IMG/VR virus record: IMGVR_UViG_3300042890_001488
Location: 1 to 37,912 of that record
Reading direction: 5' to 3' (one strand)
Origin: a virus
DNA: 37,912 nt
The position numbers were made by a program, and so were the translations under genes. How positions within the stretch are numbered: position 1 is the stretch's first letter; each line of letters starts with the position of its first letter. The notes below the pieces were generated by a model, which was given only the letters and a program-made list of their open reading frames with translations, searched no databases and was not told the DNA's origin. This document shows positions 2,926 through 18,775 of this stretch, piece after piece.

Positions 2926-2951
2926 CTATTGATATGTGGGTTTTTTGTATT

Positions 2952-3428
2952 ATGGAAGAAGTATATAAAGATGTTGTTGGGTACGAAGGAATTTATCAAG
3001 TTTCTAATTTTGGTAATGTTAAATCCTGTAAAACTAATTTAATTAGGAGTCCTTATTTAGAGAAAAGCGGATATTATTCACTTAGACTATATATTAATAG
3101 CATTGGAAATACAAGAACTATTCATCAATTAGTTGCAGAATCATTTTTAAATCATAAAAGATGCGGATATAAATTAGTAGTAAATCATATTGACTTTGAT
3201 AAATCTAATAATAAAGTGGACAATTTAGAAATAATAACAAATAGAGAAAATTCTAATAGAAAACATATTGAATCATCTTCTAAATATGTAGGTGTCCACT
3301 GGAATACAAAAGATAAAAAATGGAAATCAACTATAAGAATAAATGGAAAATCTAAATTTTTAGGATATTTTATAACTGAATTAGAAGCATCAGAAGCATA
3401 TAAAGAAGCATTGTTAAACTTTTGTTAA
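2952..3428 (+). CDS. NUMOD4-HNH-AP2 homing endonuclease (copy 1)
   Basis: A freestanding homing endonuclease of the type common in phages. It has a NUMOD4 motif at the N-terminus (YKDVVGYEGIYQVSNFGNVKS), then an HNH_3 nuclease core (NHIDFDKSNNKVDNLE) and a C-terminal AP2-like DNA-binding domain (SSKYVGVHWNTKDKKW...GYF). The family cleaves DNA site-specifically and spreads into homologous sites. I chose the ATG at 2952 (MEEVYKD) because it matches the N-termini of the other copies; the ATG at 2934 would add an odd hydrophobic hexapeptide. About 158 aa. It is the first gene of the rightward region and close kin to the copy at 9624. Confidence 0.93.
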   Translation: MEEVYKDVVGYEGIYQVSNFGNVKSCKTNLIRSPYLEKSGYYSLRLYINSIGNTRTIHQLVAESFLNHKRCGYKLVVNHIDFDKSNNKVDNLEIITNRENSNRKHIESSSKYVGVHWNTKDKKWKSTIRINGKSKFLGYFITELEASEAYKEALLNFC

Positions 3429-4120: not shown

Positions 4121-4489
4121 TTATTTACATTTACATTCAACTACATTGTATGAATTATTTGTAGTTGATGATGTTGTTCCGCTAAAAGTATTTGCATACA
4201 ATCCTAATTCCTCATCAGCCTTCATAATATCAATTATGTGTTGCTTAGATTTTAGCTTCTCAATATATAAAATACCATCAAACATTTCTTCTTGGAGATG
4301 TTGTAGCCATTCTAAGGTACTTAAATCTTTTCTATCCATCGTAGTGCCGTATTTAGCAATTCCTACCTCAGAACGCTCTTTAAATCGATTTACAACGCTT
4401 TCTACAATTGTATCTTTGACTACTTCAGGTTCTTTATAAGGTTTTGCTTCAGTTCCAAAGTAAACCATTCCAGTGTGACTTATACTCAT
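4121..4489 (-). CDS. MazG-like phage protein (122 aa, tentative)
   Basis: The middle of the protein (KYGTTMDRKDLSTLEWLQHLQEEMFDGILYIEKL, roughly residues 45-80) matches a phage protein type with the pattern YGxTxxRxDLSxLEWLxHLQEExxDxxxYxExL. The EE-x2-D signature resembles the metal-binding helix of all-alpha NTP pyrophosphatases (MazG/dUTPase superfamily), which hydrolyse nucleotide triphosphates. The other helices are not verifiable by eye. The C-terminus is Ser/Thr/Asn rich and ends ECKCK. The start overlaps the upstream gene as ATGA. The function is an inference. Confidence 0.65.
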   Translation of the reverse strand: MSISHTGMVYFGTEAKPYKEPEVVKDTIVESVVNRFKERSEVGIAKYGTTMDRKDLSTLEWLQHLQEEMFDGILYIEKLKSKQHIIDIMKADEELGLYANTFSGTTSSTTNNSYNVVECKCK

Positions 4490-4782
4490 ATTTCTTCTAA
4501 TATTATATATTCTCCATTTTTAGCTTGACCACTTATTTTTCCTTCTGTAATATTAACAGGATTAGATTTAACAAACATTTCTTTGGACATACTTAAAAAA
4601 GTATATTTCTTATACTTAGACTTTAATAATAATAAATCCAAATAGAAGTCAGTGTCCACTGTAATTACAGCATCAGTTTCGTATTCTATATAATTATCAT
4701 AGTGTAACACATAACCATCTATATAAACTAAGTTGTTTTCTTGTTTAAATGGTTTTGTTTTTAAATAAAAGTAAACAATCAT
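4486..4782 (-). CDS. Hypothetical protein (98 aa)
   Basis: A small, beta-rich soluble protein (MIVYFYLKTKPFKQENNLVY...), first gene of a two-gene leftward unit with the MazG-like gene. A predicted -7 box lies 7 bases before its ATG. It is an island of leftward transcription within the rightward early region. No family recognised. Confidence 0.7.
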   Translation of the reverse strand: MIVYFYLKTKPFKQENNLVYIDGYVLHYDNYIEYETDAVITVDTDFYLDLLLLKSKYKKYTFLSMSKEMFVKSNPVNITEGKISGQAKNGEYIILEEI

Positions 4783-4789
4783 ATTGCTA

Positions 4790-4797
4790 CAAAGATA
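4790..4797 (-). promoter_or_regulatory. Leftward promoter -7 box (TATCTTTG), 7 nt before ATG
   Basis: The minus strand reads TATCTTTG, then TAGCAAT and ATG. An exact box match, very short leader, no evident -33 element. Confidence 0.45.
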
Positions 4798-4905
4798 CTA
4801 AATTATATTTTAATATTTATATATATTTATTATTATTATTATTTGTAGGAAATATATATATATAAATGGCTATTATTAAAAAAACTAAAAAAAAATAGAA
4901 AATAG

Positions 4906-4946
4906 ACCCCCCCCCTATTTCTTGATACACTTTTTAGGGGGGGGGT
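4906..4946. repeat. C9/G9 stem-loop in an AT-rich intergenic gap
   Basis: A perfect 12-bp stem: A C9 TA (4906-4917) pairs with TA G9 T (4935-4946) around a 17-nt loop. It lies in the 319-base gap 4783-5101 between divergent genes; the rest of that gap is AT repeats, A-runs and a T9 tract at 4963-4971. Both 3' flanks are T-rich, so it could terminate transcription in either direction, but nine consecutive C and G pairs are unusual for a terminator. Confidence 0.85.
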
Positions 4947-5045
4947 GTAAAAACGCACTTTTTTTTTATAAAAATTGAAATATGGCACTTATCAATACTT
5001 TTTTCCTACAAAACACTACTTTTATGTTAAAGTTTTCTAAATTAT

Positions 5046-5076
5046 TTTGTGGATTAATATAACTTATATAGATTTG
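5046..5076 (+). promoter_or_regulatory. Promoter TTTG-N19-TAGATTTG
   Basis: Both Bacteroidetes elements are present with 19-base spacing, 25 bases before the GTG of the next gene. It probably drives the long rightward operon that starts at 5102. Confidence 0.7.
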
Positions 5077-5101
5077 TACTCGAAGTCAAGGAAACAAATT
5101 T

Positions 5102-5368
5102 GTGGCAGACTTTAAATATATTCTTATGGAAGAACAATTAGGAACTGCATTAGAAAATCTTATTGATTATGCAGAAACAGAGTACAACGATGATATTTTA
5201 AATTCGTTGATTGAAGAAATTAATGGTATTGCTGGAACAATTGATAGAGTTAATAGAGCTATTAATGACATTGAGGAAGAACTTATTTTTGGTGACCTTA
5301 ATTTAGAAACCGCAGTAAAACTTGACAAATTAAAAACAAAATTAACCTTAGAAATATCAAGACTATAA
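5102..5368 (+). CDS. Acidic coiled-coil hypothetical protein (88 aa)
   Basis: An acidic, fully helical protein with heptad-like leucine and isoleucine spacing (about residues 35-88), so a coiled coil is likely. The GTG at 5102 is used here; an ATG at 5126 (MEEQLGTALEN) would give 80 aa and is equally plausible. The stop overlaps the next start by one base. First gene of the main rightward operon. Confidence 0.7.
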   Translation: MADFKYILMEEQLGTALENLIDYAETEYNDDILNSLIEEINGIAGTIDRVNRAINDIEEELIFGDLNLETAVKLDKLKTKLTLEISRL

Positions 5369-5556
5369 TGGAAGAAGTAATCCTACAACAAATAGAATCA
5401 TTAGAATTAATAATGAATAGCCAACAAAGAAGATTAGATATTGCTACAAATCATTTAAAAGAATTAGCTAAAATTGAAGCAAATTTTATTACCTTTGGTT
5501 CGTTATCATCAGAAGAACAATTAGATAAACAATTAATCCTATCACAATACTTATAA
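5368..5556 (+). CDS. Small helical hypothetical protein (62 aa)
   Basis: A helical protein (MEEVILQQIESLELIMNSQQRRLD...) with a coiled-coil-like N-terminal half. It shares one base with the stop of each neighbour (TAATG), typical of coupled phage genes. No family recognised. Confidence 0.7.
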   Translation: MEEVILQQIESLELIMNSQQRRLDIATNHLKELAKIEANFITFGSLSSEEQLDKQLILSQYL

Positions 5557-7554: not shown

Positions 7555-7841
7555 AAAAAAGTAAAATTAAAAAGCATTTAGTTAAGACTGAAGAAGAAGC
7601 TATAAAGGAAGAATACTACAAACCAAAAAAGTTTGGAGAAGGAAAAACAGTTGAGTACGAAATTGATGGAATGAGAAAGTCATATTGTAAATTAACTGAA
7701 TGGGTAAATGGAGAAGGGTACGATATAAGTTTTGAAAGCGAAGTCAGTAAAGGAAAATGGGAGAATAAAAGAATTGACATTCACATTGATGAATTAGATA
7801 CACTTTTTGCTTGTTTAAATCACTTTAAATATTTTGGATAA
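7551..7841 (+). CDS. Hypothetical protein (96 aa)
   Basis: A basic N-terminal 35 residues followed by a beta-rich half (YDISFESEVSKGKWENKRIDIHIDELDTLFACLNHF). The C-terminal HIDELDTLFACLNHFKYF recalls the end of the A1/A2 paralogues (EAERLFILLKLIN), so all three may be distantly related. It shares one base with the next start. Confidence 0.7.
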   Translation: MKKSKIKKHLVKTEEEAIKEEYYKPKKFGEGKTVEYEIDGMRKSYCKLTEWVNGEGYDISFESEVSKGKWENKRIDIHIDELDTLFACLNHFKYFG

Positions 7842-8068
7842 TGGCAGATATTTGTAAATGTTCAGGAAAGAATTGCGACAAGAGAGAGTTTTGTTATCGA
7901 TTTACCGCAATGGCAGATAAATATAGACAATCTTATTTCGTAGATGCACCGATAAAAAAAGACGGAACTTGTGATGAATACTGGGAAATAAAATGCCCAT
8001 ATTGTGGTCAATATGCTGGAATACATAAATTAAGTTGTTCAACAGGTAAAATTACAATAAAATTATGA
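7841..8068 (+). CDS. Cys-rich zinc-binding protein, paralogue B1 (75 aa)
   Basis: Cysteines at 5, 7, 12 and 18 (CKCSGKNCDKREFC) and a second cluster at 44, 52, 55 (CPYCG) and 66 suggest two small zinc sites. The sequence is closely related to the protein at 8492, with the shared core NCDKREFCYR(F/Y)TAM and IKKDGTCDE. Likely protein or nucleic-acid binding; function unknown. The stop overlaps the HNH stub as ATGA. Confidence 0.8.
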   Translation: MADICKCSGKNCDKREFCYRFTAMADKYRQSYFVDAPIKKDGTCDEYWEIKCPYCGQYAGIHKLSCSTGKITIKL

Positions 8069-8491: not shown

Positions 8492-8716
8492 ATGGATATA
8501 ACGAAATGCAAAGGCACTAATTGTGACAAACGAGAGTTCTGTTACCGATACACCGCAATGGAAAGTAAGTATTATCAATCTTGGTTTGTTGATGTACCGA
8601 TAAAAAAAGATGGAACTTGTGATGAGTTTTGGGAAATGAAATGCGAACATTGTGGTCAATATAATGGTATTCACAAACTTAGTTGCAAAACTGGAAAATT
8701 AACCGTACATTTGTAA
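8492..8716 (+). CDS. Cys-rich zinc-binding protein, paralogue B2 (74 aa)
   Basis: Second copy of the zinc protein at 7841. Cys 6, 11 and 17 (KCKGTNCDKREFC) and the CEHCG pair keep the metal ligands, except that the CKC double is reduced to one Cys. The rest is strongly conserved (VPIKKDGTCDEFWEMKCEHCGQY). Preserved ligands suggest that both copies are functional. Confidence 0.8.
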   Translation: MDITKCKGTNCDKREFCYRYTAMESKYYQSWFVDVPIKKDGTCDEFWEMKCEHCGQYNGIHKLSCKTGKLTVHL

Positions 8717-9623: not shown

Positions 9624-10106
9624 ATGGTAGAGATATATAAAGACGTTATCGGTTACGAAGGAATTTATCAGGTATCTAATTTAGGTAATGTTAAAAGTTT
9701 TAAATGTGGCAAAGAAAAACAAAGAAAACTTTCTAAAGATAAAGATGGTTACTTGTTAGTTGGATTAAGCAAAAATGGAATATTAGATGTTAAAAAAGTT
9801 CATCAGTTAGTTGCTGAATCATTTCTAAATCATAAGAGATGTGGGTTTAAGCTTGTTATTAATCATATTGACTTTGATAAAGCTAACAATATAGTTGAAA
9901 ATTTAGAAATAGTAAGTGCTAGAGAAAATTGCAATAAAAAACATTTAAAATCAAGTTCAGTATATACTGGAGTTAGTTGGAATAAAGAAAAAAGAAAATG
10001 GATAGCTTCTATAAAAATAAACAATAAGAACAAATACTTAGGCTACTACAACGATGAATTAGAAGCATCAAAAGCGTATCAAAAAGAATTGTTAAATATT
10101 TCTTAA
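9624..10106 (+). CDS. NUMOD4-HNH-AP2 homing endonuclease (copy 2)
   Basis: NUMOD4 (EIYKDVIGYEGIYQVSNLGNVKS), HNH_3 core (VINHIDFDKANNIVENLE) and AP2-like domain (SSVYTGVSWNKEKRKW...GYY) in order, 160 aa. It is closely similar to copy 1 and to the stub at 8065, so these spread recently within the genome. It sits between a membrane protein and the SSB gene and has its own promoter. Confidence 0.94.
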   Translation: MVEIYKDVIGYEGIYQVSNLGNVKSFKCGKEKQRKLSKDKDGYLLVGLSKNGILDVKKVHQLVAESFLNHKRCGFKLVINHIDFDKANNIVENLEIVSARENCNKKHLKSSSVYTGVSWNKEKRKWIASIKINNKNKYLGYYNDELEASKAYQKELLNIS

Positions 10107-10868: not shown

Positions 10869-11134
10869 CATAAAGTAACTGGCTTTAGAAAGTAAAGAAA
10901 ACTAAAGGGAATACAAATCCACTTTACAGGATTGTGGTATCGGGAGCTAAAAAATGAAGCGTTAATTAGCGAGTTAGTAAGAACGGTGGGAAAGGCTAAC
11001 ATTTTATTACCTTTGATGGTAAGAAAGACCCTAAAAAATGGGGTTTATCTAACAAGCATAACATCCACAATGCTTTAAGAAATTAGGTGTAAAAACCGTA
11101 AGAGCCTTAATGATTTGGAGTGGATGCCAATGAG
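10869..11134 (+). pseudogene. Possible eroded gene between SSB and methyltransferase
   Basis: No ORF with a start spans this stretch, yet protein-like fragments appear in shifting frames: KTKGNTNPLYRIVVSGAK (about 10898-10954), then NEALISELVRTVGKANI in the next frame, then HFITFDGKKDPKKWGLSNKH, and LGVKTVRAL near the end. They are colinear and change frame three times or more. A gene broken by several indels explains this better than chance. Other explanations are sequencing indels or an untranslated RNA. The family is not recognised. Confidence 0.4.
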
Positions 11135-11159: not shown

Positions 11160-11795
11160 ATGAAAAGAATATTAGTAGCTTGTGAAGAAAGCCAGGCGGT
11201 AACAAAAGCATTTAGAAAATTAGGTTTTGAAGCATTTAGTTGCGATTTATTACCTTGTAGTGGAGGTCATCCCGAATGGCATTATAAAGAAGATATGTTT
11301 GAGGTTATTAAAAGAGAGCCCAAATTTGACTTAATGATTGCCTTTCCACCTTGTACTGATTTAGCAGTTAGTGGAGCAAGACATTTTGAAAGAAAGATCG
11401 CAGATGGAAGTCAAGCAAAAAGCATACAGTTTTTTATGGATGTAGTCAATGCAGATGTAGAAAGAATTGCAGTTGAAAATCCAATTGGTATTATGAGTAG
11501 ATTACATAAAAAACCTAATCAAATAATACAGCCATACTGGTTTGGAGATAAAGCACAAAAAAGTACTTGCTTATGGTTAAAAAATTTACCTAACTTAGAA
11601 CCTACCGACATAGTTGAAAAAGGAGAGTTTAAAGAGTGGAATGATAGAAAAACAGGTAAATTGAAAAGACAAGCATTATGGTATTATGAAGCTTTACAAA
11701 AAGCTAAATCGCCAGAACAAAGAAGAACATTAAGAAGTAAAACATTTCAAGGTATTGCCGATGCAATGGCAGAACAATGGGGAAAACAATTGTAA
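11160..11795 (+). CDS. Phage C5-cytosine methyltransferase-like protein (211 aa)
   Basis: A short Dcm-like fold: SAM-binding start (MKRILVACEESQAVTKAFRKLGFEAFSCDLLP), catalytic loop FPPCTDLAVSGARHF with the motif IV Pro-Cys at 64-65, and VENP at 106-109 corresponding to motif VI (ENV in classical enzymes). There is little room for a target-recognition domain, so it belongs to the compact phage group often annotated as cytosine methyltransferase. It would modify phage DNA against host restriction. Substrate specificity is not visible, and a nucleotide-level modification is an alternative. Confidence 0.78.
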   Translation: MKRILVACEESQAVTKAFRKLGFEAFSCDLLPCSGGHPEWHYKEDMFEVIKREPKFDLMIAFPPCTDLAVSGARHFERKIADGSQAKSIQFFMDVVNADVERIAVENPIGIMSRLHKKPNQIIQPYWFGDKAQKSTCLWLKNLPNLEPTDIVEKGEFKEWNDRKTGKLKRQALWYYEALQKAKSPEQRRTLRSKTFQGIADAMAEQWGKQL

Positions 11796-11799
11796 TAAT

Positions 11800-14118
11800 A
11801 TGAAAGTATCAGTTTTTAGAGATTTATTAAAATCAAAAGAAGTTCCTTTTATCGTGCCAATCGAAAAGGTTGTTGCGAGAATTAGAGATGGCAAGAGCAA
11901 AGATTTAATTGAGCGTATTAGAAAAGGAGAAGATTTGAAAAAACAACTTCCTTGCATCTTATTCGCTGGAGAATTTACCGAAAGAAATTCAAATGGATTA
12001 GTTAATCATTCAGGACTAATGGTTGTAGATTACGACAAATACCCCGATATTGTACATATTAACGAACATTTTGAGTTATTGAAGCAAAATCCACACTTCG
12101 TTCTTTTGTTTATTTCTCCTTCAGGGAATGGTATAAAAGGAGTTGTGAAAATACCTCTATCCACCAAAGAAACGCATCCTAAATATTTCAAGGCATTTCA
12201 GAAGAAATTTGACTTTGATTATTTTGACATTGCCAATTCCAATGTGGACAGAGTTTGTTTTGAATCCTACGACCCGAATATCTATGTTAATTACGATGCT
12301 GAAATGTTTGATGCAAAATTAATTGATGAAGGATTTACAATTGCTGAACGTGTGCCGTTAATTCCAATTGGAGATGAAGATAAAATCATTGATAAAATAA
12401 TGCGATTTAATTGGGGAAAAGGATTTAATGATGGAGAGCGTAACGCATTTGTATTCGATATAGCTGGAGCATTTTGTGAGTACGGAATCAGTCAATATAG
12501 TGCTGAAGGATATATTATCAATAACGTAATCATTGGAGATTTTACAGAGCAAGAAGCAAAGAACACGATAAAGTCTGCCTACCGTAAAAGGCAATTCGAT
12601 TCTAAATACTTCGAGGATTATCAGAAAATAGACAGAATTAAACTGGACTTACATCGTGGCAAAGCAGAAGTAATGAAAATCCACAATATCGATGAGAGTA
12701 CTTTTGATGACTTGAAAGAAGTTAGTGAACACGATAATTTTTGGCTCTTTGACAAGAAGGATAATGTAAAAATTGATTCGCTTAAATATAAATTGTTTTT
12801 AGAGAATAGTGGATTCAAAAAGCATTATGCTAATGGAAGCGACAAGCCAATGTTTGTATTCATTAAGGAAAATAAAGTAAGAGAATCATCTATATCAAGG
12901 ATTAAGGATTTTGTTCTTACCTACCTACTTCAAGGAAAGCATATTGATGTATTTAATTACTGCTCAACTTATCATAACTTGTTTACAGAGCAATATTTGA
13001 TAATGCTTGAGACTATCGACCTAATGATGCTGAAGGACTTAAAGGACACATCATTTATTCCATTCAACAATGGTATATTAGAAGTAACTAAAGACGATGC
13101 AGTTTTAAATGATTATATCGATGTTGATGGATATATATGGGAAAGTCAAATATTGGAGCGTGATTGGATAAAAACAAAAACAACTAACAATGACTATCAG
13201 AAATTCATAGAAAACATATCACACGATGATTCTACTGCAATGAAATGCACGATAGGTTACTTACTATTGAATTATAAAAATCGTTCTCAAAACAAGGCTG
13301 TAATCCTTAATGATGAAATTATATCAGAATCACCCGAAGGAGGAACTGGAAAAGGATTGTTCGTACAGGGCATCGGTCAGATTAGAAGGACAGACATTAT
13401 AGATGGGAAGCAATACGACAATAAGAAATCATTTGCATATCAGACCATATCTTTAGAAACAAAAGTTCTTGTGTTTGATGATGTTAAGAAAGGATTCGAC
13501 TTTGAAAACAATTTTAGCTTAATTACAGAAGGGATTACGCTGGAGAAGAAAAATAAGGATGCAATCAAATTAAATGTACACGAATCTCCAAAGGTAATTA
13601 TATCAACCAACTATGCAATCAAAGGAGATGGACACTCGCAAGACCGTAGAAGGCACGAATTAGAGATTGCTCAATTCTATGGTAAAAACTTAACACCTGA
13701 GCAGGATTTCGGAAGGCAATTATTTGATGATTGGGAGCTGGATGACTTCCATAGATTTGATAACTATATGGTTGAATGTTTGCAAGATTACTTTACCTTT
13801 GGTCTTATTGCACAAAATAGTAAGAATACCCAACTACGTAAGTTCATTGCAAGTACATCTCCTGAGTTTAACGAATGGACAATGGATAGTGAAAACCTAC
13901 CGATGGGAATAAGATTAGATAAGCAGATTTATTTAGATAACTTCAAAAGAGATTATCCCGATTTTGCACAATTCAAATTGACTCACAAACGATTCCAAAT
14001 ATTCATACAGAAATATTGCCAGTTTAAAGACTTGAAATATACAGATGGCAATAGCAACGGAATGAAATGGTTTATGATTGGAGAAGTAGAAGAAGAAGAT
14101 AACGATTTAAAATTTTAA
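11800..14118 (+). CDS. Primase-helicase (BT4734-like N-terminus, SF3 helicase)
   Basis: A 772-aa multidomain replication protein. Residues 1-170 match the BT4734-type (VirE N-like) primase domain, with acidic MVVDYDKYPD (about 74-83) and FISPSGNGIKGVVKI. A helical linker follows (GKGFNDGERNAFVFDIAGAFCEYG, about 205-230), as in primase C-terminal domains. The helicase core carries Walker A SPEGGTGKG (about 515-523) and Walker B TKVLVFDDV (about 552-560). It primes and unwinds DNA at the phage origin. ATG 11800 is chosen because upstream in-frame codons lie inside the methyltransferase gene. A 20-bp palindrome follows the stop. Confidence 0.9.
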   Translation: MKVSVFRDLLKSKEVPFIVPIEKVVARIRDGKSKDLIERIRKGEDLKKQLPCILFAGEFTERNSNGLVNHSGLMVVDYDKYPDIVHINEHFELLKQNPHFVLLFISPSGNGIKGVVKIPLSTKETHPKYFKAFQKKFDFDYFDIANSNVDRVCFESYDPNIYVNYDAEMFDAKLIDEGFTIAERVPLIPIGDEDKIIDKIMRFNWGKGFNDGERNAFVFDIAGAFCEYGISQYSAEGYIINNVIIGDFTEQEAKNTIKSAYRKRQFDSKYFEDYQKIDRIKLDLHRGKAEVMKIHNIDESTFDDLKEVSEHDNFWLFDKKDNVKIDSLKYKLFLENSGFKKHYANGSDKPMFVFIKENKVRESSISRIKDFVLTYLLQGKHIDVFNYCSTYHNLFTEQYLIMLETIDLMMLKDLKDTSFIPFNNGILEVTKDDAVLNDYIDVDGYIWESQILERDWIKTKTTNNDYQKFIENISHDDSTAMKCTIGYLLLNYKNRSQNKAVILNDEIISESPEGGTGKGLFVQGIGQIRRTDIIDGKQYDNKKSFAYQTISLETKVLVFDDVKKGFDFENNFSLITEGITLEKKNKDAIKLNVHESPKVIISTNYAIKGDGHSQDRRRHELEIAQFYGKNLTPEQDFGRQLFDDWELDDFHRFDNYMVECLQDYFTFGLIAQNSKNTQLRKFIASTSPEFNEWTMDSENLPMGIRLDKQIYLDNFKRDYPDFAQFKLTHKRFQIFIQKYCQFKDLKYTDGNSNGMKWFMIGEVEEEDNDLKF

Positions 14119-15305: not shown

Positions 15306-15818
15306 ATGGAAGAATGGAAAAAGATTAAAGATTTTGAAAGTTATGAAATAAGTAACTACGGTAATGTAAAAAGTTTGCCAAAAAAGCTAAAAAATAGATA
15401 TGGATATTATTATTCAAAAGAAAAGATATTAACTTCTAATATTGGCTATCAGGGATATAGATTCCAAAAAATAAATGATAAAATGTTTTCTATTCATAGA
15501 TTGGTTGCCGAATATTTTTTAGATAAAGTAGATGGTAAAAACATAGTAAATCATAAAGACTTAAATATATTAAATAATAATGTAGATAATTTAGAATGGG
15601 TTACAAATAGAGAAAACATACATCACTATGAAAAAAATCAAAATAGAAGTTCTAAATACATTGGAGTTAGCTGGGATAAAGACAGAAGCAAATGGACTTC
15701 TAAAATAAAAGTAAATGGAAAAACCATTAATTTAGGAAGATTTGAAAATGAATTAGATGCTTATAAAAAATATTTGAATTATGCAAAAACTGAGGGATTA
15801 TCAAGTTCGTATAGCTAA
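15306..15818 (+). CDS. NUMOD4-HNH-AP2 homing endonuclease (copy 3)
   Basis: NUMOD4 (EEWKKIKDFESYEISNYGNVKSL), HNH core (VNHKDLNILNNNVDNLEWVTNREN) and AP2-like domain (SSKYIGVSWDKDRSKW...LGRF), 170 aa. It is more diverged than copies 1 and 2, with a Lys replacing the usual Ile of HID. Its last 13 residues (about AKTEGLSSSYS) run 38 bases into the helicase gene in another frame, so its normal stop was probably lost on insertion. Confidence 0.93.
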   Translation: MEEWKKIKDFESYEISNYGNVKSLPKKLKNRYGYYYSKEKILTSNIGYQGYRFQKINDKMFSIHRLVAEYFLDKVDGKNIVNHKDLNILNNNVDNLEWVTNRENIHHYEKNQNRSSKYIGVSWDKDRSKWTSKIKVNGKTINLGRFENELDAYKKYLNYAKTEGLSSSYS

Positions 15819-18741: not shown

Positions 18742-18775
18742 AAAAAACCCCTAATAGATTTATTTATTAGGGGTT
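18742..18775 (-). terminator. Terminator between convergent transcription units
   Basis: AACCCCTAATA (18746-18756) pairs with TATTAGGGGTT (18765-18775), an 11-bp perfect stem with an 8-nt loop. On the minus strand it is followed by a T-run (A6 at 18742-18747), so it is strongest for the leftward late unit; on the plus strand only ACTTATT follows. It sits between the ends of two convergent genes. Confidence 0.85.

Follow-up and report, generated by a model that had tools for sequence, protein, structure and literature searches.

The Ogr/Delta boxes of phages P2 and P4 are upstream activator sites of phage late promoters and form inverted repeats near -55. Promoters of the N4 virion RNA polymerase contain a DNA hairpin that is extruded from supercoiled DNA and has a short stem and a 3-nt loop inside the promoter core. 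The boundary sequences of lambdoid phages are short and conserved, lie at module junctions, and are usable as recombination joints.

We analysed a viral contig of 37,912 bp (IMG/VR IMGVR_UViG_3300042890_001488; the whole stretch is called the window here) that carries a C9/G9 hairpin comparable to each of these systems in part. Like the Ogr/Delta boxes, the hairpin is an inverted repeat conserved at a set of promoters within one genome, and these promoters, which would be co-regulated, serve several units including a packaging gene. Unlike those boxes, it is a C/G homopolymer, placed upstream at a distance of ≈70-160 bp, and an activator like Ogr was not found. As with the N4 promoters, the phage promoters here have a conserved DNA hairpin; however, its 12-bp stem, its 17-nt loop, and its distance of 108 nt from the -7 box depart from the N4 arrangement, and the window ORFs searched (a subset of the large ORFs) gave no match to a virion RNA polymerase. 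Like the lambdoid boundary sequences, it belongs to a short sequence that is conserved, lies where modules join, and may serve as a recombination joint, but this cassette is much more structured, is oriented with respect to a promoter, and is repeated within one genome.

A C9/G9 hairpin between divergent transcription units

On the plus strand, the hairpin region reads TAGA-C9-TATTTCTTGATACACTTTTTA-G9-TGTAAAAACGCACTTTTTTTTT, preceded by AAATAGA. The C tract (CCCCCCCCC) occupies 4907-4915 and the G tract (GGGGGGGGG) 4937-4945. The perfect 12-bp stem pairs 4906-4917 with 4935-4946 (A4906-T4946, nine C-G pairs, T4916-A4936, and A4917-T4935) and encloses an AT-rich loop of 17 nt (4918-4934). Read on the minus strand, the hairpin is A-C9-TAAAAAGTGTATCAAGAAATA-G9-T, with the C arm distal and the G arm proximal relative to the leftward promoter. 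The C9/G9 stem reported in the preliminary description was confirmed from the letters of the window, as were the neighbouring homopolymers (T9 at 4959-4967 and A9 at 4887-4895) and the position between divergent units, in a gap (4783-5125) that is bounded by a leftward ORF (4486-4782) and a rightward ATG at 5126. The rarity claimed for such tracts was borne out as well. Runs of at least 7 C or G gave 6 overlapping matches in the window compared to 0.28 expected, a number reached in 0 of 100 shuffles, and no such run occurs outside the hairpin across the 37.9 kb. Likewise, a scan for perfect stems (7 bp or more, at least 6 of them GC, and a loop of at most 40) picked out no other site in the window. 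Folding of the flanking 86 nt gave z = -2.6 as DNA and -3.0 as RNA, and positions 4500-5500 reached the gathering score for none of the Rfam families.

The features of the region are as follows, where group 1 is the window's own type and group 2 a second lineage.

4121-4489, minus strand: next leftward ORF, 122 aa, common to group 2
4486-4782, minus strand: first ORF of the leftward unit, 98 aa, function unassigned
4784-4797, minus strand: leftward promoter core TATCTTTGTAGCAA, Bacteroidetes -7 type TAnnTTTG, 108 nt from the hairpin
4798-4905, minus strand: spacer of A/T tracts and (TA)n between the hairpin and the leftward promoter
4906-4946, no strand assigned: C9/G9 inverted repeat, 12-bp stem and 17-nt loop, from sequence, folding, and stem scan
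4907-4915, minus strand: G arm in the orientation of the element (C9 on the plus strand)
4937-4945, minus strand: C arm in the orientation of the element (G9 on the plus strand)
4928-4991, plus strand: CACTT repeats at 4928, 4956, and ≈4986, spaced 28-30 bp apart, in group 1 only
5002-5012, minus strand: TTTGTAGGAAA motif, ≈60-70 nt upstream of the hairpin, kept in group 1
5046-5076, plus strand: early rightward promoter TTTG-N19-TAGATTTG (TAnnTTTG type), leading into the RecE/primase operon

The rightward early unit encodes a RecE-like exonuclease, a primase, and a helicase, and its promoter points away from the hairpin. Because the hairpin sits between the leftward and rightward promoters, it is upstream of both. 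One of the CACTT copies falls inside the hairpin loop, and an exact inverted copy of TTTGTAGGAAA lies at 4842-4852 on the plus strand. We considered TTTGTAGGAAA as the start of an RNA leader and rejected this, as it bears no match to the Bacteroidetes -7 box; it is also missing from group 2, where coding sequence lies upstream. Elsewhere in the window, a 787-aa primase-helicase-like protein (11755-14118; BT4734-like_N, PriCT_1, and DUF5906) is among the early proteins best conserved between groups 1 and 2, and three genes for HNH-type endonucleases (2934-3428, 9624-10106, and 15306-15818), patchy among relatives, are probably homing elements.

Conservation of the hairpin in three phage lineages

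Relatives were found through the 98-aa protein and RecE, and the set was widened by a pattern scan of viral contigs. The relatives found with the 98-aa protein and RecE have the hairpin at the equivalent position. In all, 48 matches had 260 nt on either side; four lay outside the family, leaving 44 distinct genuine copies in three lineages (group 1, group 2, and L314). The presence of the hairpin on many separate contigs ruled out an assembly artefact. The first scan pattern required an unbroken C arm, a demand that the promoter-keyed searches did not make; no copy has a break in its C arm, which spans C7-C10 in groups 1 and 2 and is C5 in L314. Among homologues, the G arm ranges from G4 to G10 and is at times interrupted, as GGG(T/A)GGGGG(GG), and the loop measures 16-25 nt among relatives, with TAAAAAGTGTATCAAGAAATA and TAAACGAAATACCAAAATA among the loops of group 1. 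The homopolymer is retained in three lineages although the loop and flanks diverge. A general C8...G8 scan of viral contigs returned mainly unrelated GC-rich or low-complexity contigs.

Group 2 is 76-85% identical to the window in RecE, 81-82% in primase, and 76-78% in helicase, with no terS or structural matches among those tested save one partial match to a large protein. L314 is the most distant lineage with the hairpin (primase 61% identical); its copy, TATACCCCC-TA...TA-G8-TCAAAAAGA, is directly upstream of the primase gene. An element of host genomes was rejected, as in 84,980 genomes of bacteria and archaea the pattern had no more than scattered chance matches, none of them with the cassette. 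The cassette was also unmatched among the cultured phages of the collection searched, and Flavobacterium phage vB_FspS_mymlan6-1 (terS 39% identical) has no such stem. No paper on a C/G hairpin element was found among the open-licence papers to which the literature search was limited. The carriers are uncultured phages that probably infect Flavobacterium.

Two further patterns were seen near the hairpins. Palindromes with compensating changes, which look like operators, occur in L021 (4140-4200) and group 2 homologues (TAGGAAAAATCCTA / TAGGAATTTTCCTA / TAAGAATTTTCTTA; ACAGATTATAATCTGT). Small loops bordered by A/T runs, on the upstream side of the C arm, seem to be inverted between copies (AAAAAGTGCGTTTTT compared to AAAACGCACTTTT; GTGCC compared to GGCAC), as though hairpin loops had flipped between L004 (11460-11503) and the window (4946-4990).

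Usually two co-oriented copies per genome

In whole-record pattern counts, two co-oriented copies were found in G001, G002, G004, G007, G008, G009, G010, G011, G012, and G013; the remaining records have one copy each, and many of those are clearly partial. G001 and G009 are effectively complete circles (end overlaps of 104 and 127 nt, respectively) with exactly two copies each, which are their sole strong GC-rich stems, and the near-complete G007, G008, G011, and G012 also have two. In group 1 the copies are ≈5 kb apart, one before the left block and the other before terS (PF20901, E 5.7e-27). In group 2, the early operon follows one copy, and the other stands before a late-block gene whose 143-aa product (370-798 of G009, in hairpin orientation) has a weak match to transcription regulators (PHROG 36, E 0.0098); by eye, this protein resembles a small sigma-like or HTH regulator. 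Compared to G001 (≈44 kb, circular), the window is without ≈6.5 kb, which would be expected to hold the second cassette and terS.

Contigs frequently stop close to the hairpin, a few hundred bases away or less, and L278 starts and L280 ends exactly at the C run; these ends are probably assembly breaks at the repeat, hairpin, or homopolymer. L004 has short tandem repeats (unit like CACTCTTACAGGCT), which are possible iterons, at 10960-11100, 400-550 nt ahead of its hairpin copy at terS.

A promoter cassette of constant order and orientation

On the G-arm side, a TAnnTTT(G/A) promoter motif followed by an ATG is present in all 44 genuine copies, 67-162 nt beyond the G arm, whereas the C-arm side has a promoter motif almost only where the early promoter diverges. 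A strict pattern of T-run, A-run, and (TA)n was matched on the G-arm side in 18 of the 48 matches and on the opposite side in none. The order is constant and in a single orientation: hairpin, A/T tracts and (TA)n, TAnnTTTG-type promoter, and gene. Searches keyed to the promoter by itself, or to the distal flank by itself, recovered the hairpin wherever a cassette had enough DNA upstream. The genes that follow encode terS, the regulator-like 143-aa protein (a weak match), a 130-aa protein, the 98- and 122-aa ORFs, and, in L314, primase. From the sequences compared, it is the promoter, not the downstream gene, that is common to the hairpin copies. A special control element, as the preliminary description had proposed, is well supported by this conservation and by the link to promoters in 44 of 44 copies; beyond that description, the hairpin proves to recur within the genome, to be conserved from phage to phage, and to be linked with promoters.

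Relatives that lack the cassette are also informative. L014 (RecE 91-92% and primase ≈65% identical) has the same divergent gene pair, separated by a 134-bp gap (2689-2822) with ordinary TAnnTTTG promoters and no hairpin cassette. The hairpin is also missing from L026 (a 25.8-kb record) and from a set of more distant RecE relatives (≈60%, records of at most 36.9 kb). These relatives imply that the cassette is replaceable and lineage-specific and is not required by the gene arrangement. The preliminary description had held that related phages lacking the tract with no other change would count against a special role. L014 does lack the tract, but the whole cassette is gone with it and the promoter differs.

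Proposed role and alternative explanations

We propose that the hairpin works at the DNA level, as an upstream element of a promoter cassette that is duplicated and regulated, a predicted role to which we assign a probability of about one half. The hairpin would be the distal part of a cassette of ≈200 bp placed before the main regulated transcription units, serving the leftward block in the window and, in relatives, also terS or another late-block gene. At ≈70-160 bp upstream of the promoter, in duplex or supercoiled DNA, its homopolymeric inverted repeat would either be bound by a regulator of phage or host origin or act in an extruded form, and the two blocks would thereby be controlled together. 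The early rightward unit would start from an ordinary host-type promoter (5046-5076). The variable spacing of hairpin and promoter (67-162 nt) argues against simple direct contact with RNA polymerase, and the ability of L014 to do without the cassette also counts against the proposed role. As to candidate regulators, zinc-ribbon-like matches at 7841-8068 and 8492-8716 of the window are weak and below the Pfam cut-offs.

Judged from the sequence features discussed below, an ordinary transcription terminator is most likely a poorer description of the hairpin than a DNA switch element at these promoters. A strong, partly bidirectional Rho-independent terminator would insulate the downstream promoter from read-through, and we consider this somewhat unlikely. 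The hairpin does resemble such terminators in its GC stem within AT-rich DNA, in the T-rich edge of some copies, and in its position at operon boundaries in group 2, where the genomes are co-directional and each of the two hairpins coincides exactly with an operon end, late or early. As RNA, it is stable (mean ≈-25 kcal/mol in group 1). Moreover, the downstream edge is T-rich in group 1 copies, and T5-6 follows the X copies of group 2, a terminator-like trait that counts against a DNA-level element; the X copy of G012, GTATACCCCC/GGGGGTATAC, is followed by CTTTTTT. However, the loop of 16-25 nt compares with a short loop of ≈3-8 nt in intrinsic terminators, the stem is homopolymeric, and termination would not need an unbroken C7-10. 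The Y copies of group 2 and L314 have TCAAAAA after the stem instead of T; T residues after the stem number, out of 10, ≈6.4 in group 1, ≈5.3 in X, and ≈1.6 in Y, with TCAAAAAGA in L314. The hairpin is at the 3' end of a unit in X and Y but not in the window, where it lies between divergent promoters with no unit there to terminate and where a terminator scan did not call it. Canonical hairpin-plus-T-run terminators are already present upstream in two lineages, ≈600 nt away in L004 (group 1, copy 2) and ≈40 nt away in L314, and the window's own terminators have mixed stems with C3-5, 4-8-nt loops, and immediate T-runs. The bidirectional terminator suggested initially is therefore a poor fit, given the long loop, the missing U-tract in Y and L314, and the separate terminators upstream, and termination is at most a secondary property of some copies. 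A terminator-like site of a make unlike the hairpin's lies at 18746-18775, where the early and late units of the window converge, and is likely a bidirectional intrinsic terminator.

A replication origin, or an element recognised by primase, in which the A/T tracts would form the unwinding region, is an unlikely reading of the hairpin. The combination of hairpin, T-run/A-run, and (TA)n is origin-like in make-up, GC skew flips sign at the hairpin (≈5 kb) in the window, and groups 1 and 2 have the replication module in common (primase 80-92%, helicase 76-90%) but not most of the structural module. However, GC skew stays positive across both hairpins in the essentially co-directional G009, G011, and G012. 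Because no flip occurs at the hairpins of group 2, where nearly every gene points the same way, the window's flip follows transcription; an origin inferred from GC skew was rejected as confounded by gene direction, so that skew lends no positive support to the origin element of the preliminary description. A clean linkage of hairpin and primase was suggested by the hairpin-less L014 and L026, whose primases are divergent (64-66% identical) despite ≈91% identity of RecE in L014. It was weakened by L314, whose hairpin adjoins the primase gene, as the reading would have it, yet is kept with a primase of only 61% identity. Further unlike an origin, the element is present in two co-oriented copies per genome and is always promoter-linked, and conserved iterons are absent across lineages. 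The comparisons lent no support to the replication-fork block of the preliminary description.

Quite unlikely, in our estimation, is a mechanism in which negative supercoiling between divergent or tandem promoters would extrude the hairpin or expose the C/G tract. A phage protein would then recognise the extruded form beside the easily melting A/T tracts and couple replication or late timing to the two main promoters.

Maintenance of the repeat as a recombination joint at module boundaries, for shuffling early, left, and late blocks, seems very improbable. The cassette lies at junctions of the shared replication module with unrelated late modules, and loop types are common to different positions. 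L011, whose only cassette is directly between the early operon and terS, looks recombinant, combining the upstream flank of copy 1 with the downstream flank of copy 2 (terS), and such a single hybrid cassette is the expected outcome of recombination between two direct copies. This would account for the repetition, but not for the promoter orientation or the upkeep of the homopolymer, and any repeat is expected to recombine in a phage with a RecE-like exonuclease. Finally, a length-variable (phase-variation) switch, the last of the roles suggested initially, is hardly credible: homopolymers slip and run lengths differ between relatives (C7-10, G4-10), but the window tract lies outside promoter spacers (≈100 bp away) and coding frames, and C7 is the minimum in every group 1 and 2 copy (C5 in L314).

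Implications for uncultured Bacteroidetes-type phages

The DNA-level promoter element proposed here would be a control element shared among uncultured Bacteroidetes-type phages, for which we found no study of regulation. The hairpin and promoter cassette together provide a sequence handle for locating co-regulated blocks, and the cassette marks sites of module exchange among these phages. Should the homopolymer work through the structure it forms in DNA, phage gene expression would be timed in an unusual way.
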